Shown piece by piece: positions 6,376 to 54,678 of a stretch of 64,000 nt of DNA (the first letter of the stretch is position 1; every line of letters starts with the position of its first letter). The stretch lies in IMG/VR virus record IMGVR_UViG_3300020200_000014, positions 21,059 to 85,058 of that record, one strand, 5' to 3'. The DNA comes from a virus. Position numbers and translations under genes: made by a program. Below the pieces are notes generated by a model. That model did no database searches. It had not been told where the DNA came from and saw only the letters and a list, made by a program, of their open reading frames with translations.

Positions 6376-7301
6376 CTAATAGTTTGCATACTTCGGTTCA
6401 TCAATCATATCAACTAATTTTTTGAGTTCATTGATTCCATATTCAATATCATATAAACATATAAATCCTGTTTTGTAAAATTTTTCACTGCTTATACGAT
6501 AATCTCTTTTGTCCTCATCTTTAGTATATTCTGCTTTAATTATTTCTAAAGGTATAATTGATTTAATTTTTTCTACTAAATCCAGCTTTGAACAATTAAG
6601 AAAATCATTTCCAACATTGAATACTTCATCGATTGTTTTATTTGAATCTATCACATGAACAAATGCTCTACAAATATCTTGTATGTGTATATAATTTCTA
6701 ATAGCATGACTTTCATACAATACAATTACTTTTTCTTTTATTGCCTTTAAAACAAGATTATTAATTAGCAAATCAAACCGTGGCCTTTTTGAAATACCAA
6801 AAACAGTTGCAAGTCTCAGAATAGTGTAATTTTCAGATTGTTTAATTTCTTCTTCTGCTTCACACTTTGTTTTACCGTATATGGAGATAGGCAACAAAAC
6901 AGATTCTTCTGTTATAATTTCTTTATTGTCTGTAATGCCATATCCACTATTCGTATTTGGATATAATATTCTTTGATGTTTTGATCTTATATCGTTTATA
7001 AATTTTACGTGTCTATAATTTATAAGATAGCTATCTGTTGGATTACATTTACATAGATTAGCCCCAACTAATGCTGCAAGTGGTATTATAATATCATATT
7101 TTGGAACTAATTGTTTTAATAGCTCATCATCTCTAACATCTCCCTTAATAAATGTGAATTTTGAATTTGATATATAAGAAACAAGACTGATTCTTTCATA
7201 CAATAAATTATCAATAACCGTAACTTCATGATCTTGCAATAAATGTGCAATTAATTCTGAACCGATATATCCAGCTTTCCTCCAGTCACTAAAATATTCA
7301 T
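6376..7301 (-). CDS. NAD-dependent sugar epimerase/dehydratase (extended SDR), frame broken near the start
   Basis: The long frame covers about 287 residues from 7239 and shows SDR features: PLAALVG, the active-site Tyr-x-x-x-Lys as YGKTK, and an NVGND C-terminal element. The Rossmann glycine loop is missing from that frame but is encoded just upstream: an ATG at 7301 with an AAGGAG site reads MNILVTGG, then the frame must slip by one base near 7276-7281 to read AGYIGSEL. The intact gene would be about 308 residues and would act on a nucleotide sugar. The break could be decay or a sequencing error; rescue by frameshifting is less likely, because the site (GGA AAG) is not a strong slippery sequence. 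Confidence 0.75.
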
Positions 7302-8486: not shown

Positions 8487-9386
8487 ATGCAAACTACTAA
8501 AGTCTTAATTTTTGGCAAAGGATTATTAGCTACTGCGATTCTTAAACTAAATGATTATTTTTTTGCTGATCTAGACCTCACGTATGCCAGTAATACAAAT
8601 GATTTCATAAAAAAACTTTCTCCAGACATAATTATAAATTGTGCGGCTTTAGTAGGTGGCGTTAAGTTAAACTCAGAAAATCAAGAAGAAATGTTTTATG
8701 TTAACAATGTCATTAGTTCAAATGTCATTCACGCTGCTGTAAAAAATAACATTAAAAAAATAATTGCTTTTGGGTCCACTTGTTCTTTCGATGAATCTTT
8801 GGAAGAATTAAATGAAAACAATATTCAATTTGGATTACCTTATTTTAAAAACTATGGCTATGGTTATGCCAAAAGAATGACAGAAATTCATTTAAAGACA
8901 GCTAAAGAACAATATGGGCTAAAATACAATTACTACATTCCCTGCACTCTTTACGGCCCTAATGATAACTTCAACTTGGATAGATGTCATGTAATTCCAG
9001 CATTAATTCATAAGTGCTTTTTAGCCAAAAAAGAAGATAAACCGTTAATAGTTTTTGGAGATAAAAATGTAAAAAGAGAAGTTATGTTCTCTGAGGATTT
9101 CGCTCAAATTATAACAAATACTATAAATGAAGATTTAGAAGCTGTAATGGTTTCTGTAGGTCAAGAAGTTTCTGTAGAAGAATTAGTTTTTTTAATAACT
9201 GATAATTTTAAGTTTACAGGGAAAATTATTTGGGAATCCAGTATCCTGCCAGGTCAATTAAAAAGACCTGTTGCAAATGTAAATAAAATAAAACCTTATA
9301 TTAATTTTAAAATAACTAAATTAGAAGAAGGAATTAAAAAAACAATTAATTGGTTCGAAAATAACTACCCTGGTATAAGAAAATGA
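8487..9386 (+). CDS. GDP-L-fucose synthase-like nucleotide-sugar epimerase/reductase
   Basis: A 299-residue SDR. The N-terminus (KVLIFGKGLLATAI) is a Rossmann loop, GSTCSF carries the catalytic Ser region, YGYAKR is the Tyr-x-x-x-Lys motif, and LYGPNDNF followed by RCHVIPALIHK is typical of the GDP-fucose synthase/GDP-colitose synthase group. Such enzymes epimerise and reduce a 4-keto-6-deoxy hexose bound to a nucleotide. The stop overlaps the start of the next gene (ATGA), beginning an apparent five-gene operon (8487-13118). With the 3-dehydratase-like gene downstream, a GDP-colitose-type or related deoxysugar is a reasonable product, though the substrate is inferred. Confidence 0.8.
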   Translation: MQTTKVLIFGKGLLATAILKLNDYFFADLDLTYASNTNDFIKKLSPDIIINCAALVGGVKLNSENQEEMFYVNNVISSNVIHAAVKNNIKKIIAFGSTCSFDESLEELNENNIQFGLPYFKNYGYGYAKRMTEIHLKTAKEQYGLKYNYYIPCTLYGPNDNFNLDRCHVIPALIHKCFLAKKEDKPLIVFGDKNVKREVMFSEDFAQIITNTINEDLEAVMVSVGQEVSVEELVFLITDNFKFTGKIIWESSILPGQLKRPVANVNKIKPYINFKITKLEEGIKKTINWFENNYPGIRK

Positions 9387-9964
9387 TAAAAGAAGACCTT
9401 GTAGCTTTTGAAGAAGATATAAAAGATTGTTACTCAAAAGGATTAATAAAATATCCAATTCATTTAAGAGGAGGATGTGAGGATCATTTAATAGAAATAT
9501 TTAAGAACATTAAAGAAGAAGATTATGTTTTAAGTACATGGGCATCTCATTTACACGCTCTTTTAAAAGGAATTCCTGCCGACAAAGTAAAACAAAGAAT
9601 ATTAGATGGTTTAAGTATATCATTATGTTTTCCTGAACACAGATTTTTTGCTAGTGGTATAGTTGGCAATTTAATAGGAGTTGCTGTAGGGATTGCTCAG
9701 TCCAGTAAACAACGTGTTTTTGTGTTTTTAGGTGATATGGCAATTATGTCTGGAATAGCACACGAAGCTATGAAATACAGTAAAAATTTTGATTTGCCTA
9801 TTTATTGGATTTGTGAGGATAATGGGGTTAGTGTTTTAACTGATACTAAAAAAACTTGGGGGTGTGAAAAACTTCAGTTAGATTGGGATCATCCTAAGTT
9901 AATTTATTATAATTACATCAATAAATATCCTCACAGTGGAACAGGAGCTAAAGTTGCTTTCTAA
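9383..9964 (+). CDS. Thiamine-diphosphate enzyme, PDH E1 alpha-like subunit
   Basis: A 193-residue protein resembling the alpha subunit of 2-oxoacid dehydrogenase E1 but shorter than the usual 320 or so residues. DYVLSTWASHLHALLKG matches the E1 alpha region with two active-site His, SGIVGNLIGVAVGIA is the conserved core helix, and GDMAIMSG to CEDN spans the ThDP-binding GDGx-Asn motif. The reading frame overlaps the next gene by 29 bases, which encodes the matching beta-like half. In a sugar cluster such pairs may transfer a two-carbon unit to a sugar, as the AviB1/AviB2 pair is thought to do in avilamycin biosynthesis; transketolase-like activity is the alternative. Confidence 0.72.
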   Translation: MIKEDLVAFEEDIKDCYSKGLIKYPIHLRGGCEDHLIEIFKNIKEEDYVLSTWASHLHALLKGIPADKVKQRILDGLSISLCFPEHRFFASGIVGNLIGVAVGIAQSSKQRVFVFLGDMAIMSGIAHEAMKYSKNFDLPIYWICEDNGVSVLTDTKKTWGCEKLQLDWDHPKLIYYNYINKYPHSGTGAKVAF

Positions 9965-10484
9965 TTACTTCGATGAATTGTGTAAATCTATGGAATGGCT
10001 TGCAGATAAAAACACTCATTTCATAGGCCAGGGGGTGAAAGATGGAGGCACATTTATGTCTTCAACTTTCAAGAACATTTCAGAAGAAAAAAAAGTTGAG
10101 TTTCCAGTTGCTGAACAATTTCAATTTGGAATCTCTATTGGATGGGCTATTGCCGGACATATGTGCGTTTCGGTATTTCCAAGACACAATTTTTTATTAC
10201 TTGCAATGTCTGAAATGGTAAATTTATTAGATAATTTTCCAGAACTTACAAAAAGCGATTATATGCCCAAATTAATTATAAGAACTGCGGTGGGTACAAC
10301 AAAACCAATATATCCAGGAGTTCAACATGCAGGAAACTTTACAGAAGCATTCAAAAAATTACTTAAAAATATAAAAATTGTGGAATTAACGGCAGCGGAT
10401 CAAATATTTCCAGCTTATCAGGATGCTTATGAAAGAAATGGGACCACTTTAATTACTGAATTTGGGGATTTATATTATGCATAA
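9936..10484 (+). CDS. Thiamine-diphosphate enzyme, PDH E1 beta/transketolase pyrimidine-binding subunit
   Basis: A 182-residue protein matching the pyrimidine-binding half of E1 beta. The key ThDP-activating Glu lies in EFPVAEQFQFGISIGWAIAG, and IIRTAVGTTKPIYPGVQHAG follows as in E1 beta. The C-terminal transketolase domain is absent, so this is a minimal subunit. The start is uncertain: GTG at 9936, or TTG at 9954, which has AGGAG six bases upstream. It must pair with the 9383 product to build an active site, since each supplies half of the ThDP pocket. Confidence 0.7.
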   Translation: MEQELKLLSNYFDELCKSMEWLADKNTHFIGQGVKDGGTFMSSTFKNISEEKKVEFPVAEQFQFGISIGWAIAGHMCVSVFPRHNFLLLAMSEMVNLLDNFPELTKSDYMPKLIIRTAVGTTKPIYPGVQHAGNFTEAFKKLLKNIKIVELTAADQIFPAYQDAYERNGTTLITEFGDLYYA

Positions 10485-11598
10485 AATTGAATTTGGAGAA
10501 TTTAGAGCTAATGAATTATGCAAAAAAGAAGTAATGGATTGCCTGGAGAAAAATTGGGTATCGATAGGGAATAAAACAAAAGAATTTGAAGAAAAATTTG
10601 CAAAACTTTTTAATTACAAATACTGTTCGGCAGTTAATTCAGGAACAAGCGCTGGAATTGCGGCTTGCATCTCGCTTTATGATATTAAAAATGCCAAAAT
10701 GCATGATGAAGTCATTTGCCCGGCTTTATCTTTCATAGCCACAGCAAATGCAATTAGAGCAGCTTCTTTGACGCCTAAATTTGTTGATGTTGGTTACGAT
10801 ATGAATATCAACACTGATTTGATTGAAGAAGCCATTACAGAAAAAACAAGAGCTATCAAAGCAGTAAGTTTAATAGGTAAACCTCCTAAAATGGATAAAA
10901 TTGCAGAAATAGCCAAAAAATATAATTTAGCGGTAATAATTGATAATTGCGAAGGTACTGGCAACAAATATAAAGGAAGACATTGTTTAGAATATTCTGA
11001 CATTGAAACTTCATCTCATTACGTCGGGCATCTTTTAGTAGGTGCTGAAGGTGGAACTTGTTTAACGAATTGTGAAGAGATAGATAGCTTAATCAAATCC
11101 ATAAGATCACATGGCAGAAGAAGTGGACTTTATTTTGATCATCCTCGTTATGGGCTAAATCTTAAACAATCTGATATTCATTCCGCATTACTTTTAGGTA
11201 CAGTTGATAAATTTTGGGATATTTTCAACAAACGCAAAAAGAACTATTATTTTATAAGAAAAGCATTAGTTGACTTTGAAGATATTGCCTGGTTTACTGA
11301 AGAAGATGAAGGAGATACAAATTGCCCGCATGGATTTAGTATAACTTTAAAACCTAAATATAAAGATAAACTTGGGGACTTAAAAACTCATTTGTATGAA
11401 AGTTCAATTCACTGGAAAAGAAATTTTGGCAGTATCCCTGATCATGGCACTTTTGGCTATATTAATGAAAAAGAAAAGTATCCAGTAGCCACTTATATTG
11501 GTGATTATGGCATTCATGTTGGTTGTCACTATTATTTGTCAGATGATGATTTAATTTATTTGACAGATTCTATTAAGAAATTTTTCGAGAGGTTATAA
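10477..11598 (+). CDS. DegT/ColD/DdhC-type PLP sugar 3-dehydratase (His replaces Lys)
   Basis: A 373-residue member of the DegT/DnrJ/EryC1 fold-type I PLP family. The motif that normally holds the PLP lysine reads DIETSSHYVGHLLVGAEGG; aligned with DIGxFSFYPTKN it has His at the Lys position, as in GDP-4-keto-6-deoxymannose 3-dehydratase (ColD) and the CDP-sugar 3-dehydrase E1 (DdhC/AscC), which have AHH there. DNCEGTG also fits that subgroup. So it is more likely a C-3 dehydratase for a 3,6-dideoxy sugar than an aminotransferase. The start is the ATG at 10477, overlapping the stop of the E1 beta gene. The next gene overlaps it by TAATG. Confidence 0.8.
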   Translation: MHKIEFGEFRANELCKKEVMDCLEKNWVSIGNKTKEFEEKFAKLFNYKYCSAVNSGTSAGIAACISLYDIKNAKMHDEVICPALSFIATANAIRAASLTPKFVDVGYDMNINTDLIEEAITEKTRAIKAVSLIGKPPKMDKIAEIAKKYNLAVIIDNCEGTGNKYKGRHCLEYSDIETSSHYVGHLLVGAEGGTCLTNCEEIDSLIKSIRSHGRRSGLYFDHPRYGLNLKQSDIHSALLLGTVDKFWDIFNKRKKNYYFIRKALVDFEDIAWFTEEDEGDTNCPHGFSITLKPKYKDKLGDLKTHLYESSIHWKRNFGSIPDHGTFGYINEKEKYPVATYIGDYGIHVGCHYYLSDDDLIYLTDSIKKFFERL

Positions 11599-13118
11599 TG
11601 CAATTAGACATCTTATTTATTCATTCAAATGCTTCGGAAGAAATATATCAAGGTCTTAGCAAAGAACATTCTGGAATTGAAACACCAATTTGGGCAGGCA
11701 TGCTAGCTCAGCATTGTCGCATGAAAGGCTATGGAGTGCAAATTCTCGATTGTGAAGCAGAAAGATTAAACTATAAAGAAGCTACTAACTTGATTGTAGA
11801 AGCTAATCCAAGAATTGCTTGTTTTGTGGTTTATGGGCAGCAACCTTCGGCGTCAAGTCAAAATATGAAAGGTGCAATTGCACTAGCCCAAGAACTTAAA
11901 AAAATTAGCCATATAAAAATACTATTTGTTGGCGGTCATGTTTCTGCATTACCATATGAAGTTTTACAAGAAGATTGTGTTGACTTGATATGCCAAAATG
12001 AAGGAATCAAAACGATAAGTAATTTGTTAATGTGTGATAACTTTAATGACACTTCTTTGCTGGAAAAAATAAAAGGACTAGGATTTAAATATAATGATGG
12101 CAAAACAACATATCATTTAAACCAAATTGATCCAATAATTCCACAAGACAAATTGCAAGAAGAACTACCAGGCATAGCATGGGACTTATTACCTTCTCCA
12201 ACAAAATACCGCACAGCAGGATGGCATTCTTGGCCTAATAATTCTATAAAAAGTCCTTTTGCATCGATTTATACTAGTCTTGGCTGTCCATTTAAATGCT
12301 TATTTTGCATGATAAACATAATTAATCGTGAAGATAATAGCCCTGACGCTACAAGCAATAAAAGCGCCAATTTCCGATATTGGGAACCAGAGTTTACAAT
12401 TAATAAATTAGATAAACTTGCAAATATGGGTATCAGGAACCTTAAAATTGCTGATGAAATGTTTATTCTTAGGGAACAACATTTTATGAAGTTGTGTGAA
12501 TTAATCAGTGAAAGAAAATACAATTTTAACATATGGTGTTATGGAAGAGTCGATTGCACTAAGCTAAAATATCTAGAAGCATTAAAGAAAGCTGGAGTTA
12601 ACTGGATTGCTCTTGGAATTGAAAGTCCTAATCAAACAGTAAGAAAAGATGTAATTAAAGGCGGTTATAAAGAAGTTAAAATAAAGGACGTTGTAAATGA
12701 AATTCGAAATGCAGGTATAAATGTTTGTGCAAATTATATTTTTGGCTTGCCAGAAGATAATTTGCAAACTATGCAAGAAACACTAGATTTTGCAATGGAT
12801 TTAAATACAGAAAATGCTAATTTTTATGCCACACAAGCTTACCCTGGAAGTCCTTTGTACTATCAAGCTAAAACAAATGGATGGAAGTTACCAGATAAAT
12901 ATGAAGGATATAGCCAACATTCTTATTGGACGCAGAATCTCCCAAGCAAGTATCTATCAGCCGCAGAGATATTAAAGTTTAGGGATCAAGCTTGGATTAA
13001 ATATTTCACCAATATAACTTATCTAAATATGTTAGAAAAAAAATTTGGTATCGCAGCAAGAAATGATGTGGAAAATTCTACAAAAATAAATCTTAAAAGA
13101 AAAATATTAAACGATTAA
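11598..13118 (+). CDS. B12-binding-domain radical SAM protein
   Basis: A 506-residue protein. The first 150 or so residues resemble the Rossmann-like cobalamin-binding domain of class B radical SAM enzymes (ETPIWAGMLAQHC, LFVGGHVSALP). The radical SAM cluster motif is GCPFKCLFC (CxxxCxxC, about residues 233-240), followed by NIWCYGRVD, ALGIESP and NYIFGLPEDN as in the Elp3/MiaB SAM fold. Family members carry out methylations, ring contractions and other radical reactions, often on sugars or antibiotics. Translation is coupled to the dehydratase gene (TAATG), so it may modify the same sugar, for example by C-methylation. Confidence 0.83.
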   Translation: MQLDILFIHSNASEEIYQGLSKEHSGIETPIWAGMLAQHCRMKGYGVQILDCEAERLNYKEATNLIVEANPRIACFVVYGQQPSASSQNMKGAIALAQELKKISHIKILFVGGHVSALPYEVLQEDCVDLICQNEGIKTISNLLMCDNFNDTSLLEKIKGLGFKYNDGKTTYHLNQIDPIIPQDKLQEELPGIAWDLLPSPTKYRTAGWHSWPNNSIKSPFASIYTSLGCPFKCLFCMINIINREDNSPDATSNKSANFRYWEPEFTINKLDKLANMGIRNLKIADEMFILREQHFMKLCELISERKYNFNIWCYGRVDCTKLKYLEALKKAGVNWIALGIESPNQTVRKDVIKGGYKEVKIKDVVNEIRNAGINVCANYIFGLPEDNLQTMQETLDFAMDLNTENANFYATQAYPGSPLYYQAKTNGWKLPDKYEGYSQHSYWTQNLPSKYLSAAEILKFRDQAWIKYFTNITYLNMLEKKFGIAARNDVENSTKINLKRKILND

Positions 13119-13840
13119 AGAAAGGATATTTCTTGAAATGAATCAGATTTCCTAATTTCCTTGTTTAGCAATTCAGTATAATGTTGAATATTTATAGTTG
13201 GATAATTGCTAATAGCAGCTACATATAAATTTATTTTATCTTTTTTTCTCAATCCGCTATGATAAGAAACATGCTGAATCATTATTTCAGACAAATCACA
13301 CACTCGATCTATCGCACTATAAATTTTAAATAATTCTATATCTGCTGACCATGCTGCAAATTGTGGAGGTATTGCGAATCCTAATGCATCTGCCCCTTTT
13401 CTAGATATTAAAGGAAAACAACTGTAATTTAGCCCACCTGCTCTTATTAATAAAGTATCACTTATAAATCCATAAACTATACCATCTGGTTTATCTGAAA
13501 GATACTTTTCTAATTTTTCAAAAGCAATTTGGTCCCATTTTGGGGTTTTAAATAAAGTGTCATCATTACATATGATAGAATACTTTCCTGTAGCAAAGTG
13601 TACATGAAGCCAATTTAAGTAATCCCTATTTAACATAGTCGTTCTAGGTCTACTATAAATTCTAACGAATGAATACTCCTTAATTTTTTCTTTAAAATTT
13701 TGGGATACAACATCATCATCATCGATTGCTACTAATAGCTCAACATTATTTAGATCGTCAGTAGTCTCTTGCACACTTTTAATTAAATTGTACAATAATT
13801 CTGTTCTTTCTCTACTTGCCAATACAATTGAGAAATTCAT
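13115..13840 (-). CDS. GT-A fold (GT2-like) glycosyltransferase
   Basis: A 241-residue protein starting MNFSIVLASRERTELL, with VELLVAIDDDD in the second strand and a DxD-like SIICNDDTLF site near residue 90. It is a paralogue of the 5684-6367 transferase with the same layout, including a GADALGFAIPPQFAAWSAD segment in place of GARKLGWTMPPYFPAWGAD. It converges on the radical SAM gene with a 4-base overlap. The two transferases bracket the sugar-synthesis operon and are the likely users of its activated sugar. Confidence 0.75.
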   Translation of the reverse strand: MNFSIVLASRERTELLYNLIKSVQETTDDLNNVELLVAIDDDDVVSQNFKEKIKEYSFVRIYSRPRTTMLNRDYLNWLHVHFATGKYSIICNDDTLFKTPKWDQIAFEKLEKYLSDKPDGIVYGFISDTLLIRAGGLNYSCFPLISRKGADALGFAIPPQFAAWSADIELFKIYSAIDRVCDLSEIMIQHVSYHSGLRKKDKINLYVAAISNYPTINIQHYTELLNKEIRKSDSFQEISFL

Positions 13841-13953: not shown

Positions 13954-14022
13954 TCAATTAGCAAGTCCTTTTTCTTTTTGATGTTTCAATAACCAATCTA
14001 TTTGTTTCTCTCTAATTCTTGG
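13954..14022 (-). pseudogene. C-terminal gene remnant
   Basis: On the minus strand a 22-codon stretch ending at a TGA (13954-13956) reads as plausible protein (REKQIDWLLKHQKEKGLAN). Upstream of it the frame runs into the unrelated epimerase remnant. It looks like the last residues of a lost gene. It is too short to assign. Confidence 0.3.
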
Positions 14023-14450
14023 AAAATATAGATGTATCTAAAATAAGCAAATACGGTCTAAGCAAATACATCGCAGAATGCATAGTAAAAAACAGGTGTA
14101 AAAATTGGAACATCCTAAGGTTAAATGGCCCCATAGGTCCAAGAATGAAAAAAGGACCAATTTTTGATATATTAAATAACAAAAAACTATGGGTATCTGG
14201 TGAAAGTAAGATGCAATTTATACATGCAAAATTTATAATGAAATTTATAAATTTACTTATAGAAAAAGATATTAAGAATGAAATTTTTAATATAACTGGT
14301 TTTCCCCATGTAAAATTAATTGATTTATTCCCAAATATAGCTTACCCTCAATTGCCTGTGGTAAATCAAAATATTTCTGTAAAAAAAGCTAATTTAATTA
14401 TGCAAATGCCATCTTCAGAGGAATCTATAAAGGAAATTTTATGCAATTAA
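14019..14450 (+). pseudogene. C-terminal fragment of an NAD-dependent sugar epimerase
   Basis: The 143-codon frame has only a TTG start and begins about where an extended SDR would have its active site (SKYGLSKYIAE contains the Tyr-x-x-x-Lys). It continues with NILRLNGPIGPR and a C-terminal NITGFPHVKL element. The N-terminal Rossmann domain of about 130 residues is absent upstream, so cofactor binding is impossible as it stands. I read it as the remnant of an epimerase gene cut by a deletion or recombination, in a scar with other gene pieces. Confidence 0.65.
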
Positions 14451-14590: not shown

Positions 14591-14989
14591 TTACCAGCTA
14601 ATATCCCAACCTTTAAAATCTTCAGCAAGACAATCAATTTTGTAATCTTTTCGGCCACCAACAATTTCTTGAATTTTGTTCTTTGCTGTACATCTAAGCC
14701 CATTTAAACCATGACTTAATTCTAAATTATTACCATCCTTAATGCCCTTCCTGTAATTTGCTTCATTATACCAAATATGGGAATTCATTTGAGCAACAAC
14801 TATTATAGCTCTTATTGTATTAGCATCTAACATAACATTACTCTCATCAATTATTTGTTGTATATCATGCAATACATCCTGAATTTCTTGAGCATACTGC
14901 TGTTTATGTTCTGGTATTTTACATTCTTTAAGTTGAATAATACTAAGTCTATCTATCAGTTCAGACAAGGTAGGCAAATATTTCCTCAT
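14591..14989 (-). CDS. Conserved-looking helical protein beside the GT9 gene
   Basis: A 132-residue protein: KYLPTLSELIDRLSIIQLKE, a long charged helix, NSHIWYNEANYRKG and LSHGLNGLRCTAKNKI. The pattern is of a helical bundle with conserved polar residues (SELIDRLSI, HGLNG), but I cannot name a family. Its start overlaps the stop of the GT9-like gene by ATGA, so the two are coupled and probably act in the same glycan step. Confidence 0.65.
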   Translation of the reverse strand: MRKYLPTLSELIDRLSIIQLKECKIPEHKQQYAQEIQDVLHDIQQIIDESNVMLDANTIRAIIVVAQMNSHIWYNEANYRKGIKDGNNLELSHGLNGLRCTAKNKIQEIVGGRKDYKIDCLAEDFKGWDISW

Positions 14990-15897
14990 TTTAATCCTTT
15001 TAAGAATGTCTCTAAATTCTCAAGCTCAGCTGCAAAATTGCCATCTCCATCTTGGTAATTAATCCAAGTTCCCTGTTTTTTCATTTCTGCAAATATATTC
15101 TCTTCACCGCCATCTTCGCCTTCATATAAACATCTCTGCCAAGCAGGTGCTACCAAAAACACAGGAACATTAAATTTTGTAGCCAAAGAACAGTAACATG
15201 ATATTGTTCCAATCATAGCCCTAGCATGAGAAACAACATCACAATGCAATCTTACTGAATATTTATCCAGCAAATTATAAACATTTAACCTATCATATGA
15301 AAAAACTTCCTGTATTTCCTTATAATGTCCAACCTCATGTCTTTTTGAATTTCCTCCTAATAAAACCACGTTAAAACCAGCATCAACAATTAAATCAACT
15401 AGTCTATAAAAACCATCATATCCAATCTTGTCAAACCATCTACGTTCATCATCTCCAGCAAATAAGTGCAATCCTACATACGGTTGTGAAATTTCTACCA
15501 ATTTCTCTTCAGGAGATAAGAAAAATTGCATTCTCTTTTGCTCTAAAGTAGCTTTTAATTCAGGTAATTCATTCAAATAAGGCAATCCTAAAGATCGTCT
15601 TTCTAAAAAACTTTCACTATATTCAGTCCAACTATAGTTAGAAATTTCATCAAAATAAGGATTGTACTTAAACAATTCATGAGTATGATTGCAAGTTGTA
15701 CAAATAACGGCACGAACTTTAACAAAAGGATATTTTTCTTTCAAAGAAATTACATAAGGACATTCATTTTGCCAAGTGTATTTTAACCAATTACAAGCAG
15801 TTCTAGAAAGAGGTTTAGAAAAAGGAGCAGAATAACAAATAGATATGTCGCCTAACCCGGCTCTAAATGCAATATTGATTTTTTCAGGAATAATCAT
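14986..15897 (-). CDS. GT9-like (ADP-heptose:LPS heptosyltransferase fold) glycosyltransferase
   Basis: A 303-residue protein of GT-B type. It starts INIAFRAGLGDISICYSAP, equivalent to the GxGD loop of heptosyltransferases. PYVGLHLFAGDDERRW and FNVVLLGGNSKRHE correspond to the C-terminal Rossmann nucleotide-sugar site, and AMIGTISCYCSLATKFNVPVFLVAP to the conserved GxxSxxxHLAAAxxxP region. It is probably cytoplasmic and acts on a glycan under construction. A second GT9-type domain occurs at 59248-60453. Confidence 0.72.
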   Translation of the reverse strand: MIIPEKINIAFRAGLGDISICYSAPFSKPLSRTACNWLKYTWQNECPYVISLKEKYPFVKVRAVICTTCNHTHELFKYNPYFDEISNYSWTEYSESFLERRSLGLPYLNELPELKATLEQKRMQFFLSPEEKLVEISQPYVGLHLFAGDDERRWFDKIGYDGFYRLVDLIVDAGFNVVLLGGNSKRHEVGHYKEIQEVFSYDRLNVYNLLDKYSVRLHCDVVSHARAMIGTISCYCSLATKFNVPVFLVAPAWQRCLYEGEDGGEENIFAEMKKQGTWINYQDGDGNFAAELENLETFLKGLK

Positions 15898-46090: not shown

Positions 46091-46819
46091 GTGAGCCTCA
46101 ATCGTGCCGGTCAGTATTTTGTTGCTATTCTCGTTGAACGAGAAATTAAGCCACTCCACAAGGTTAAGAAGGAAGTTGGTATAGACCTTGGCATCTGTGC
46201 TTTAGCAACAACTTCTGCTGGCAAAGAGTATAAGAACATCCGTCCGTATCGTAGTTTGCAAAAAAGACTACGAGCATTAAACAAGAACCTGCATAGGAAG
46301 AAACTTGGTAGCAATAATCGTGAACGAGCCAGGAAGTTGCTTGCCAAGGTGCATATTAAGATTGCGAACATACGCAGCGACCATTTGCATAAAGTAAGTC
46401 GTCAGATAATTGACGAGAACCAAGTCATTTGTCTGGAGACGTTGAATGTAAGTGGCATGATGCGTAATCATTGTCTTGCTAAATCCATTGCCGATGTTAG
46501 TTTGTCTGAATTAGTCAGACAGATTGAGTATAAGGCGAATTGGTGTGGCAGGACGGTCATCAAAGTAGATAGATGGTTTCCATCCAGCAAGACTTGTTCA
46601 AAATGTGGTTTTGTCATGGACTCACTACCTCTTAAGATTAGAGAGTGGATTTGTCCGAAGTGCAAGGCAAAACATAACCGTGATAAGAACGCTGCTGTTA
46701 ACATCCTTAACGAAGGAAAAAGAACCGTAGGAACTACGGAGTTAGCGTATGGACTCAATGTAAGACCTAAGAGCATTCAAGGGCGGTTGAGGATGAAGTA
46801 CGAAGCCCCTACCCTTTAG
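46091..46819 (+). pseudogene. tnpB: TnpB, N-terminally truncated
   Basis: A 242-codon frame covering the C-terminal two thirds of TnpB: KEVGIDLGICALATTS (RuvC Asp), NQVICLETLNVSGMM (Glu), a zinc finger in KTCSKCGFVMD and CPKCKAKHNRD, and NRDKNAAVNIL (last Asp). A full TnpB has about 370-430 residues; the wedge and recognition regions are missing, and the frame closes upstream at a TAA (46052). It cannot form a normal RNA-guided nuclease. The overlapping 3' end and right-end hairpin are where the guide (omega) RNA would be encoded. Confidence 0.8.
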
Positions 46820-50654: not shown

Positions 50655-53294
50655 TTATTTATTGAAACTAACAGGACAAGCACCAGTTGCACAATCTACA
50701 TGAGCATAATCAACATCTTCTTGCATAGCTTTCTTAATTTGATTTAATACATCTTCATATTGTGCTTTAGTTACAGGTTCTTCTGGCAAATATTCATAAC
50801 TTGCTTCTTCTTCTTGAGGCATAATTGAACAACATTTAATTTGCTTTTGGTATTTTCTAAATGTCTTCGCAAATTCCATGAAACTAATCTTTTTAGGTTC
50901 ATATTTAAGCGTAAAACTAATTTGTCCCCCACTATCTCTTTTTAGAGGTTCACCATCTTCAGTAACCCCCCTAAGCCAATATTTTTCGCCTAACATGAGC
51001 CATTTATAGTGTTCTTCTGGTCTGCACTCTCCTGCTGTAACTAATTTATCGCCAATATCCAGATTGCAAATTTCTGGTATTGTGGGGAATCCTATGATAA
51101 CAGCATTTTGATATTTTATCAACTCTCTGCAAGGATAACCATTCTTTTTGTAAGCTTCCACCAAAGGATCACTTTTGCTAAACTGCACCCATCGCAAGTA
51201 CCATTTCATTGCTGCAAGATGCCATCCCTCTGTAAGACCAAATAGCTTAGATACAGAACCACTTGGTTTTATGGTAACGTCAGTGTGTGGAGGTAATAAA
51301 CCATATTTAGCACTGTATTTTTCAGCTTCATCTTGTACTGCACGTTTGATTCTAGACAAAAACATCCAAAATTCAGCAGACTTTTCTTCATCTATTAAAT
51401 CTCTAAACCCTAATTTGAAGAATTTCCAGGCAAATTCATGAACGCCAGTTAGTCCTATGCCAATTCTATTTGTTCTTTGAACTTCCTGAGAGTAAATGCT
51501 ATCCATAGTATTTACTCTAATTAAAGCCCTGGTCATGGCCCTAGCTGCTACTTCAACTTCATCAAGAGTATCCGCATGATAAGGAACTAAATCACCAATG
51601 ACACAAAAAGCACCCCAAAGAGCAATGGGAATTTCACTACAATTATGTGATTTAAATCCGTTGCCACAATAACAATTTACTTTTGCAACATTGCAATCAT
51701 AAACTTTTTGTTTACCAATATATTTTATGCTTTTAAATTTATCGACGCTTTTATTGATTAATAATTTGTCTCCTTGTTTGATTGATTGCAATTCTATCCA
51801 ATATCGTTTTTTATTTCTTATTACTAAAAATCTATGGTTTGCTGTAGCTGTTATTGAATATCCTCTATCTATTTTTAATTCAAATACATCTTTTTCACCT
51901 ATCTCTAGAAATCCGTGAGATTTATAGGGCTTTCCATCAACGATAGCATTAAATGGCACGTCAATTAAATCTTGAACCATTTTGGGACCGCCATCAGTCA
52001 AAACCCAGGTATCACCCGTAACACACGGATTGACAATCATCCAGTATTTTTTCTTAAGTGCCTTCTTCAGCAACCTGTTCAAATAAAGGTGCGTATCGTC
52101 ATTAATTTGATATTTTCTACTTCCTACTATCTCCTTTTTAAAATTATCTGTACCTTCATAATTAACATTTAATTTGTCAACATTAATAAACCCTGGTTCG
52201 CCTGTTCCATCGCCATACGCAGCCGTTGTTGCTAATTTAAATACTTTTCTAGCATGTTTGGCCAAACTAGAATCATATTTTGGATTATTTCTCTTAAGTT
52301 CTATTAATTCCCAAAATTCTTTATCAACTAAGATCGAATTATTTGAACTCCACAAAAAACTATTTGGTTTTATGACAAAGTTTTTTCTTGTTTCAATAAT
52401 TTCTTCTACATTTTGTCCATAATATTCAATTGGTCTTTTGATTGTTATAAATTGGAATATTGTTGGGTCTTTCCAATATTTTGTAGACATGCGTGCGCTG
52501 CGCCTAGCACCACCAAAAAGCACACATTCTGCAAAGTAATGATCGACATACATTGATTGCATAAAACGTGGTAAACCGGCCCCTTTAAGAGTCAATGCTT
52601 TTTGAAATGAATTCATAAGGGGAACAGGGCCACTAGCAGGGCGATTTTGCATGCCTTTAATTAATGCCCCTTTGGGTCGCACTTTCGAGAAATCTAAAAT
52701 AAGTAATTTATCTTTATGAATTTTTTCAAAGGCTGCATTTTCCCAAACTTCTAGAGCTTTTGCCCAACCTTCTCTCGTATCTTCGACTTCATACCACAGA
52801 ATATCTTTGCCTTTTCCATATTTGTGTCTTGCATCCCTTACACTTTCATGTGCAGAATAATCATAATCAGGATGCTTATCATCAATTACACACCTTAAAT
52901 TTGGTGCATTATCCCAATTAACCAACATCATATCGTCGTCATAGCTTCTGCCTACTCCTGAACCGGACATCAAGAGATAGAACATTGCAAAACTACTACA
53001 ACTAGTTGCGCAATTCGTAAAAACTTCTTGTGTACGTTCTGGTTGTGTCTCATCGCCATGTTGTAAATGCCGTCCAGACATGATGATGACGGCTTTTTCC
53101 AGATGCTTCTTTAATATCTTATATTCTTCTTTTTGTTCTTCTTTAGAATTGCATAGTAAAGAATTGCCTAATGCGACTCGATTTGAGACATCGCCCCATG
53201 TTTCCCATTCACCGTTCTCTTTTTTTCTTAGTATTGTTCTTTCTGCTACTGCCCTTCCCATTCCAGGATAAAAATCTCTAACAAAATGACTCAT
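50655..53294 (-). CDS. nrdJ: Class II (B12-dependent) ribonucleotide reductase with mini-intein
   Basis: An 879-residue precursor, 751 after splicing. Reductase signatures: FTNCATSCSSF (about 92), SGSGVGRSYDDD, FGGARRSARMS, and NP-C-SEIPI, the catalytic thiyl-radical Cys loop, interrupted by the intein after NP. TIKPSGSVSKLFG is the substrate-loop and DCATGACPVSF the C-terminal redox Cys pair. The enzyme reduces nucleotides with adenosylcobalamin and so works with or without oxygen, unlike T4 NrdAB. Activity requires intein removal. Followed at eight bases by pyrG. Confidence 0.92.
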   Translation of the reverse strand: MSHFVRDFYPGMGRAVAERTILRKKENGEWETWGDVSNRVALGNSLLCNSKEEQKEEYKILKKHLEKAVIIMSGRHLQHGDETQPERTQEVFTNCATSCSSFAMFYLLMSGSGVGRSYDDDMMLVNWDNAPNLRCVIDDKHPDYDYSAHESVRDARHKYGKGKDILWYEVEDTREGWAKALEVWENAAFEKIHKDKLLILDFSKVRPKGALIKGMQNRPASGPVPLMNSFQKALTLKGAGLPRFMQSMYVDHYFAECVLFGGARRSARMSTKYWKDPTIFQFITIKRPIEYYGQNVEEIIETRKNFVIKPNSFLWSSNNSILVDKEFWELIELKRNNPKYDSSLAKHARKVFKLATTAAYGDGTGEPGFINVDKLNVNYEGTDNFKKEIVGSRKYQINDDTHLYLNRLLKKALKKKYWMIVNPCVTGDTWVLTDGGPKMVQDLIDVPFNAIVDGKPYKSHGFLEIGEKDVFELKIDRGYSITATANHRFLVIRNKKRYWIELQSIKQGDKLLINKSVDKFKSIKYIGKQKVYDCNVAKVNCYCGNGFKSHNCSEIPIALWGAFCVIGDLVPYHADTLDEVEVAARAMTRALIRVNTMDSIYSQEVQRTNRIGIGLTGVHEFAWKFFKLGFRDLIDEEKSAEFWMFLSRIKRAVQDEAEKYSAKYGLLPPHTDVTIKPSGSVSKLFGLTEGWHLAAMKWYLRWVQFSKSDPLVEAYKKNGYPCRELIKYQNAVIIGFPTIPEICNLDIGDKLVTAGECRPEEHYKWLMLGEKYWLRGVTEDGEPLKRDSGGQISFTLKYEPKKISFMEFAKTFRKYQKQIKCCSIMPQEEEASYEYLPEEPVTKAQYEDVLNQIKKAMQEDVDYAHVDCATGACPVSFNK
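51642..52025 (-). other. Mini-intein in NrdJ (128 residues)
   Basis: Residues 424-551 of the precursor. Block A is CVTGDTWVLT with the nucleophile Cys1; block B is SITATANHRFLVI with the TxxH; block F/G is KVYDCNVAKVNCYCGNGF then SHN, with the His-Asn pair and Cys as the +1 residue. No endonuclease domain is present and the length is near the minimum for splicing. The +1 Cys is the reductase thiyl-radical Cys, so insertion is at the most conserved point. Confidence 0.88.
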
Positions 53295-53364: not shown

Positions 53365-54678
53365 TTAACTAAAAATATTTCTAGCTAATCGCACAGAAGA
53401 AGTTTGTTGGATTTCTCTCAACCTTATTCTTTTCGGCACAGTGACCGTGCCACTATTGAGTTGAGAAACTATGTCTCTCTCCCCTGTACTTTTTATCATA
53501 ATACCTAATGCTCCATTCACATCAGCATTAAGAGTTTTTCCTACACTTGATTTAAATAATCCCCAAGGACTACGTTTGCCAAGATATTTTTCATGGTAGC
53601 ACATCTTTTCTCCAACAAGATGATCACACTTGGAAGTATATGCTTCGTTTTGAGTTTTAAATTCAATACCATTTAACTGACACTTTGCTTGTAATTTCCA
53701 AGCAAATTTTCCAAATGATAACATTGTAAAATTTTGATTATTACGTTTGCCATTATTTGCACATTTTTGTGCTTTCCAACCTTCTCCAACAATGACATTG
53801 CCAATTTTATTGATTATGCAAATTTGCACAATTAAATTAACATATTGATTTAAATATTCATTAATTTGCCTATTTCTCTTATCACCAAAACCAAAAATTT
53901 TACTGCCATATTTAATAGATTGTTTATCATAGATAGATTGAATTTTGCTTTTTTGTTTGTTGTAATACTGATTAATGGCTTTCATTTCTTTGCCATCTAG
54001 AATAAATGATTTTCCAATATTAGATAGACAAGTTGCAAAATTATCTACTCCAATGTCTATTGATAAAACATTCTTTTTATTTAAGTCATGGTTTTTCTCC
54101 TTTACTTCATAAACAAATTCAATTTCAAACCATTTAGCATTATTTTTAGGTAAAATTCTTACTTCTTTGACTTTACCTGTTACTGTTGGTGGTACAGGAT
54201 AATGAAATTCTTTGAAATTAAACTTACTTTGTAATTCCTTTGGTACTCGTAGCGTGAACCAACCTTTGCCACACCTGTTTTCTAATATAAGATAAATAAA
54301 AACAAAATAGCTATCTTTGGGCAAGTAGCCAGGTATATTAACAGGACGATTATAATTACCACCTTGCTTCTTCTTGAGCAAGCCGAAGAATGAGCGAAAA
54401 CTACGTTCCACTATCTTCATGGTTTGTTGAGCAGCCATTGTTGGCAAATTCTTATATTCTTTCGATCCCTTCATTACATGATAAGCACTGTTATAAGTTA
54501 AGAATTGTCCACATTGAAAAAAGTATTGTCTAGTTTCATAAAGTGTAGCATTGTACAGGTTTTTACTTCTTCTGCAAATTTCTTTGAAGAATTTGAGTTG
54601 TCCTTTACCAATCTTGAGTTTATTTTTTTGAACTTTAAACATCATTTGCCTACTACTAATCTTTTTTGGGTAAGCCAA
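53365..54678 (-). CDS. tnpB: TnpB-type RNA-guided nuclease, near full length
   Basis: A 437-residue protein, AT-rich like the phage, so long resident. RuvC motifs: VLSIDIGVDNFATCLSN (Asp), GNVIVGEGWK (Glu) and NADVNGALGI (Asp). The zinc-finger region (TSKCDHL, KMCYHEK) is diverged from CxxC...CxxC, with one usual Cys pair incomplete. No tnpA or clear IS ends flank it, and it lies in an intergenic site between nrdJ and the gp46-like gene. It may act as a stand-alone TnpB using an RNA from its 3' region, like a homing gene. Confidence 0.8.
   Translation of the reverse strand: MAYPKKISSRQMMFKVQKNKLKIGKGQLKFFKEICRRSKNLYNATLYETRQYFFQCGQFLTYNSAYHVMKGSKEYKNLPTMAAQQTMKIVERSFRSFFGLLKKKQGGNYNRPVNIPGYLPKDSYFVFIYLILENRCGKGWFTLRVPKELQSKFNFKEFHYPVPPTVTGKVKEVRILPKNNAKWFEIEFVYEVKEKNHDLNKKNVLSIDIGVDNFATCLSNIGKSFILDGKEMKAINQYYNKQKSKIQSIYDKQSIKYGSKIFGFGDKRNRQINEYLNQYVNLIVQICIINKIGNVIVGEGWKAQKCANNGKRNNQNFTMLSFGKFAWKLQAKCQLNGIEFKTQNEAYTSKCDHLVGEKMCYHEKYLGKRSPWGLFKSSVGKTLNADVNGALGIMIKSTGERDIVSQLNSGTVTVPKRIRLREIQQTSSVRLARNIFS

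Follow-up and report, generated by a model that had tools for sequence, protein, structure and literature searches.

We describe a gene module in a virus genome fragment (IMG/VR record IMGVR_UViG_3300020200_000014) that we read, with a probability of roughly 0.58, as encoding the later steps of a route to a C4-branched, GDP-activated 3-deoxy-heptose destined for a glycan of the surface or the virion. The window, meaning the whole stretch of 64,000 nucleotides analysed here, covers bases 21059–85058 of the 85,058-base record, which is itself a fragment. We observed directly which genes are present, to which protein families they belong, that catalytic residues are conserved, that the genes are linked and that the thiamine diphosphate (ThDP) enzyme is exchanged; from this we infer all substrates and products. 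The core of the module is a run of five plus-strand genes, recovered in the order given by an earlier note made from the sequence alone and confirmed in their families by Pfam and NCBIfam. By its sequence a sixth gene, absent from that note, lies outside the 8487–13118 run, on the minus strand at 6376–7239, and the module is thus larger than the five genes first delimited. The six members are as follows:

8487–9386, plus strand: short-chain dehydrogenase/reductase (SDR) resembling GDP-fucose synthase, with C5 epimerisation and/or keto reduction as its predicted step (Pfam, NCBIfam and PDB matches)
9383–9964, plus strand: minimal E1-alpha of 193 aa, with the ThDP pyrophosphate (PP) domain only (E1_dh match, predicted model)
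9936–10484 (open reading frame, ORF), plus strand: minimal E1-beta of ~176 aa, with the pyrimidine (PYR) domain only (Transket_pyr, profile match)
10477–11598, plus strand: ColD/DdhC-type 3-dehydratase-like enzyme dependent on pyridoxal or pyridoxamine phosphate (PLP/PMP) (DegT family, His185)
11598–13118, plus strand: radical S-adenosylmethionine (rSAM) enzyme with a B12-binding domain (Pfam, CxxxCxxC, predicted model)
6376–7239, minus strand: predicted Cj1427-like GDP-heptose C4-dehydrogenase (PDB match, frames)

The five core genes are tightly packed, with overlaps of 4 bases between the SDR and E1-alpha, 8 bases between E1-beta and the ColD-like gene, and 1 base between the latter and the rSAM gene; the likelier E1-beta start is a TTG at 9954, with AGGAG ahead of it at 9943–9947. 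The run is not a chance arrangement: a separate viral contig (L002, 46.9 kb) carries the same genes at 97–100% protein identity to those of the window, the only noted exception being a five-residue difference in E1-alpha, and the same families recur jointly in dozens of loci, bacterial as well as viral.

The ColD-like enzyme belongs to the DegT_DnrJ_EryC1 family (Pfam, E = 4e-63, 214 bits), with RfbH as its closest NCBIfam family. In its motif SSHYVGHLLVGAEGG, His185 stands at the position of the PLP-binding lysine of aminotransferases, and histidine occupies this position in 80 of 84 relatives, the other four not having been parsed. This residue is the ColD/DdhC hallmark and supports the predicted 3-dehydratase type, as the earlier note had proposed. 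An aminotransferase, the outcome that the note named as fatal to its proposal, is argued against by the same histidine, the activity itself being a prediction, and we dropped this assignment. The SDR matches the Pfam family Epimerase (E = 2e-35), has GDPFucSynFcl as its best NCBIfam model (E = 5e-44, under the equivalog cut-off) and finds GDP-L-fucose synthases as its top PDB matches (E = 1e-49).

The product of 6376–7239 points to the likely sugar. Its best PDB match is 6vo6/6vo8 at 252 bits, with the next match at 54 bits; for a full-length bacterial homologue the values are 373 and 78 bits, respectively. We take 6vo6/6vo8 to be Cj1427, the GDP-heptose C4-dehydrogenase of Campylobacter jejuni; the printed molecule name is "putative sugar-nucleotide epimerase/dehydratase".

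A scan of GTDB-type genomes with an E1-alpha alignment recovered 36 bacterial loci, from Omnitrophota, Burkholderiales, SAR11, SAR116, Nitrospiraceae and others. Their surroundings, to a distance of 10 kb or the end of the contig, contained HddA-like genes (21 loci), HddC-like genes (17), the C4-dehydrogenase (17), rSAM (16), His-type ColD (16), GmhA (10) and GmhB (3). These and the other context counts are lower bounds because some ORFs of high-GC loci were lost to overlap filtering. The names HddA, HddC, GmhA and GmhB are best or joint-best NCBIfam matches, mostly under equivalog cut-offs. Exactly one Cj1427-like gene was present in 19 of 22 genomes and exactly one rSAM homologue likewise in 19, nearly all beside the E1 genes; as these genomes were chosen mostly for having the module, the numbers demonstrate single copy and linkage at the limits used, not a rate. 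The linked Cj1427-like gene, together with the GDP-heptose gene sets around the bacterial relatives, makes GDP-heptose the most likely substrate, rather than the GDP-4-keto-6-deoxymannose of the earlier note, for which there is no linked 4,6-dehydratase. The base is then probably a heptose and the product a 3-deoxy sugar, not the 3,6-dideoxysugar suggested there.

We consider it unlikely that the SDR and dehydratase follow a plain colitose-like route, turning host GDP-4-keto-6-deoxymannose into a 3,6-dideoxyhexose while the E1 pair and rSAM enzyme serve other metabolism. The colitose pathway (ColD, ColC) does share with the module a His-type PLP dehydratase, here resembling ColD/RfbH, and a GDP-fucose-synthase-like SDR, and plain colitose-type sets of GDP-mannose 4,6-dehydratase, epimerase and DegT-like gene exist in cyanophage ACG-2014f. 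Unlike these, the cluster lacks a linked GDP-mannose 4,6-dehydratase, its linked oxidase is Cj1427-like, and it adds ThDP and rSAM genes; the ColD-like, E1, rSAM and C4-dehydrogenase genes, moreover, recur jointly.

The ThDP enzyme is a pair of unusually small subunits. E1-alpha matches E1_dh (Pfam, E = 1e-7) over profile positions 8–175 of 300, and its best NCBIfam model is pyruvate dehydrogenase (PDH) E1-alpha (E = 1e-17). E1-beta matches only Transket_pyr (E = 2e-4), which by itself is under the Pfam cut-off and becomes firm with the alignment; the profile of its family matches PDH E1-beta at ~1e-15. With the first half of E1_dh in one chain and Transket_pyr only in the other, each subunit thus carries one cofactor-binding domain. 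The earlier note had recognized the E1 family of both subunits and missed their PP-only and PYR-only nature. E1-beta has no Transketolase_C match in Pfam and so falls short of the full-length subunit of E1-type pairs, and the window subunits, being E1-type, also lack the three-domain chain (TPP_enzyme N/M/C) of YerE-like decarboxylase-type (DC-type) enzymes. In the B. stearothermophilus PDH complex, the C-terminal domain of E1-beta contributes to E2 docking. With this domain missing and no E2-like gene noticed among recurrent neighbours, we dropped the idea that the pair serves a dehydrogenase complex.

The E1-alpha model (predicted local distance difference test, pLDDT, 92) aligns over 187 residues with human PDH E1-alpha (Z 19.9, root-mean-square deviation 2.0); 2-oxo-acid E1 entries score Z 16–20, and DXS and transketolase ~15 or less. 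His27 of E1-alpha aligns with the histidine of HLCDGQE in human E1-alpha, a Glu and a His of E1-beta align with the catalytic pair of human E1-beta and are invariant in 61/61 relatives, and the ThDP motif GDM...EDN is invariant or near-invariant. Residues and modelled fold support E1-type rather than plain transketolase chemistry, in line with the earlier assignment, the reaction itself being predicted and the fold scores still being compatible with transketolase activity. By likeness of working only, the pair can be regarded as a minimal relative of E1-type (alphaKADH2) sugar-branching pairs.

A viral scan with an rSAM alignment gave 80 loci, in which the C4-dehydrogenase was found 56 times, the ColD-like gene 42 times and a ThDP enzyme of any kind 70 times: minimal E1 in ~21 loci, a longer E1 pair (~276 + 303 aa) in ~30 and a DC-type enzyme in 19. 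The remaining ten comprise five short loci and five within one clade. All three kinds can also stand together: in a SAR11 genome (L031:5024–14240), a single set of rSAM, HddA, ColD and C4-dehydrogenase is surrounded by a DC-type enzyme, a long E1 pair and a minimal E1 pair.

On a quickly built rSAM tree, some of whose branches are long, there are no fewer than 12 switches between ThDP kinds. The phage loci L146 and L159 share 93–96% DNA identity along their upstream flank, the rSAM gene and the HddA-ColD-C4-dehydrogenase stretch; what separates rSAM from HddA is a DJ-1-like gene plus the long E1 pair in L146, and a DC-type enzyme plus an aminotransferase-like gene in L159. Similarly, L204 has the order rSAM, minimal E1 pair, HddA, ColD, C4-dehydrogenase, and L155 has a DC enzyme at the same place. 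The DC-type exchange partner has the TPP_enzyme N/M/C domains; among solved structures it is closest to JanthE (8rph), a ketone carboligase of the YerE kind. That YerE/JanthE-like carboligases and E1-type pairs replace one another in loci that otherwise agree backs a branched 3-deoxy product. The two-carbon branch of the earlier note, with its yersiniose-like sugar, gains strong though indirect support in this way; the branch itself is what we infer from the exchange. In 9 of the 80 loci (L129, L132, L138 and others), a PanB-like ketopantoate hydroxymethyltransferase gene lies between rSAM and the DC-type enzyme; as a guess, it could supply a tailored 2-oxo acid.

These results bear on a rather improbable alternative, in which the E1 pair acts as a small transketolase, making sedoheptulose 7-phosphate for heptose synthesis, and the remaining genes lead to a plain 3-deoxy-heptose. 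Bacterial loci do carry GmhA/HddA/HddC-like genes of a pathway that starts from sedoheptulose 7-phosphate. In cyanophages S-SM2 (L008:9971–11179) and P-TIM68 (L009:10046–11191), a fused minimal E1, alpha then beta, is annotated as a transketolase central region (phrog_34187, function unknown) and stands beside an annotated phosphoheptose isomerase, kinase and nucleotidyltransferase. However, sequence and fold of the window pair side with the 2-oxo-acid E1 enzymes, with the E1 His/Glu/His kept, and same-position exchange with YerE-like decarboxylases fits carboligation, not sugar-phosphate transfer. No GmhA/HddA/HddC-like gene was found in the 85-kb phage record, itself a fragment. The fused proteins resemble the window pair in having both minimal domains and 38–40% identity to its E1-alpha, but differ in forming one chain, with no rSAM and rarely a C4-dehydrogenase nearby.

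Alternatively, the ThDP and rSAM enzymes might turn a 2-oxo acid into an unusual acyl group, joined to the sugar via oxygen or nitrogen instead of forming a carbon branch. Some cassettes hold PanB-like or aminotransferase-like genes able to shape 2-oxo acids, but no acyltransferase was recognized among the linked genes, the nearest relatives of the DC-type replacement are enzymes joining 2-oxo acids to ketones, and the linked dehydratase would supply exactly a 4-keto sugar; we consider this alternative quite improbable.

The rSAM enzyme matches both Radical_SAM and B12-binding over the Pfam cut-offs, and its CxxxCxxC cysteines are invariant in 14 sequences. The closest fold to its model (pLDDT 89.7) is AprD4 (Z 29.4), followed by MgmA, TsrM, CysS and OxsB. 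AprD4 is a sugar diol dehydratase and here ranks ahead of methylases; the tailoring step may be either methylation or deoxygenation.

Taken as the late part of a branched 3-deoxy-heptose pathway, the module could work as follows. The Cj1427-like SDR would oxidise C4 of host-made GDP-D-glycero-manno-heptose; since supply genes are not in the phage record, the phage would draw on host heptose. The His-type PLP enzyme would then remove O3, giving GDP-3-deoxy-4-keto-heptose. The minimal E1 pair would decarboxylate a 2-oxo acid, probably pyruvate, and attach the resulting acyl anion at the C4 ketone, so that C4 becomes a tertiary alcohol bearing a two-carbon branch. The GDP-fucose-synthase-like SDR would epimerise C5 and/or reduce a ketone; with C4 by then a tertiary alcohol, any ketone that this enzyme reduces would have to lie elsewhere. 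Finally, the rSAM enzyme would methylate or deoxygenate the sugar.

Parts of this scheme have precedents. Cj1427 with a C3-dehydratase yields GDP-3-deoxy-4-keto-heptose in vitro (PMC10680097), and C. jejuni naturally makes 3,6-dideoxy-heptoses (PMC10440746). This ketone is of the type used by YerE, which adds pyruvate-derived acetaldehyde to CDP-3,6-dideoxy-4-keto-glucose (PMC12247030). E1-type pairs add C2 branches to sugars in antibiotics (AviB1/B2, Pau11/12, KbDH; PMC4753412, PMC12247030). By analogy, the Cj1427/C3-dehydratase, YerE and antibiotic E1 chemistries combined would give the proposed C4-branched 3-deoxy-heptose.

The module differs from each of these systems. C. jejuni GDP-heptose modification (PMC10440746, PMC10680097) shares the Cj1427-type oxidase, the PLP C3-dehydratase and the GDP-fucose-synthase-like SDR, as well as the GDP-heptose supply genes seen with bacterial relatives of the module, but its described enzyme set has no ThDP carboligase or rSAM enzyme and its known natural products are unbranched. 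The yersiniose-type enzymes YerE, ErwE and JanthE (PMC12247030, PMC12188165) are like the proposed module in that a 3-dehydratase is followed by transfer of a 2-oxo-acid-derived unit onto a nucleotide-sugar 4-ketone for a surface glycan; YerE, however, is of the DC type and works on a CDP-hexose, whereas the module has an E1-type pair probably acting on a GDP-heptose. AviB1/AviB2, Pau11/Pau12 and KbDH, likened by description, are E1 alpha/beta pairs for which a C2 branch on a keto sugar or analogue is proposed or shown, yet they come from secondary metabolism, whereas the subunits of the module are PP-only and PYR-only and belong to clusters of phages and of surface-sugar genes. In the literature on heptose, ThDP and radical SAM in phages we found no description of this module; a paper on pelagiphages mentions lipopolysaccharide genes and cassettes with radical SAM, but not this pathway (PMC7029224).

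Several observations weigh against the branched-heptose interpretation. The chemistry of every member of the module is a prediction, and the heptose-supply genes are missing from the phage record. The clade of five rSAM loci has no nearby ThDP enzyme. The clearest swap concerns the longer E1 pair, exchange of the minimal pair resting on synteny (L204 vs L155) and the tree. The fused cyanophage minimal E1 stands beside rSAM in 0/44 cases and beside the C4-dehydrogenase in 1/44; its absence from rSAM loci and its proximity to heptose-supply annotations suggest that the E1 family may have more than one role. Finally, the window C4-dehydrogenase is frameshifted and no intact Rossmann N-terminus is found in one frame: the two pieces of the Rossmann start, MNILVTGG followed by GYIGSELI, are in different frames around 7290, upstream of the 7239 ORF. 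The L002 copy begins at the same residue and is equally shortened, so that the gene is either damaged or affected by a sequence error common to both records, and is not a proven working member; C4 oxidation may accordingly depend on the host in this record. That the whole cluster is a decaying remnant making nothing is nevertheless very improbable, because, against this shared frameshift and a truncated epimerase remnant at 14019–14450, the five operon genes are intact and overlapping, encode 97–100% identical proteins in two contigs and keep their catalytic residues.

The genes next to the run include two possible users of the sugar:

13115–13840, minus strand: GT2-like glycosyltransferase, possible user (Glycos_transf_2, E = 4e-4, just under the cut-off)
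14019–14450: short ORF, a probable remnant, matching an NAD-dependent epimerase over its C-terminal half only (Pfam)
14591–14989, minus strand: small 132-aa protein of unknown function, with a homologue in 39 of the 80 rSAM viral loci and no Pfam or PHROGs match
14986–15897, minus strand: GT9-like (heptosyltransferase family) protein, possible user (Glyco_transf_9, E = 5e-5, just over the cut-off)

Elsewhere in the window, a ribonucleotide-reductase-like ORF (50655–53294, minus strand) has, by eye only, an internal intein-looking stretch (CVTGDTWVL ... HNC), and two ORFs (46091–46819 and 53365–54678) resemble IS200/IS605-type TnpB proteins, again by eye only.

A few O-antigens (YerE type) and antibiotics (E1 type) already provide examples of ThDP-made branched sugars, and a 2025 review suggested that surprising functions of such a kind might turn up in viruses (PMC12247030). 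More tentatively, and at slightly less than even odds, we propose that an undescribed pathway in phages and diverse bacteria makes C4-branched 3-deoxy-heptoses, in which the branch is set by swapped ThDP cassettes of the minimal E1, longer E1 and YerE-like superfamilies, a PP-only and PYR-only pair forms a minimal keto-sugar carboligase, and rSAM tailoring follows. If true, phages would carry and swap branching cassettes in quantity, on a heptose base and with a two-domain E1 pair sufficing for the reaction. Chemistry would then have a ready pool of carboligases that accept ketones, and phages a concrete route by which to alter host or virion glycans.

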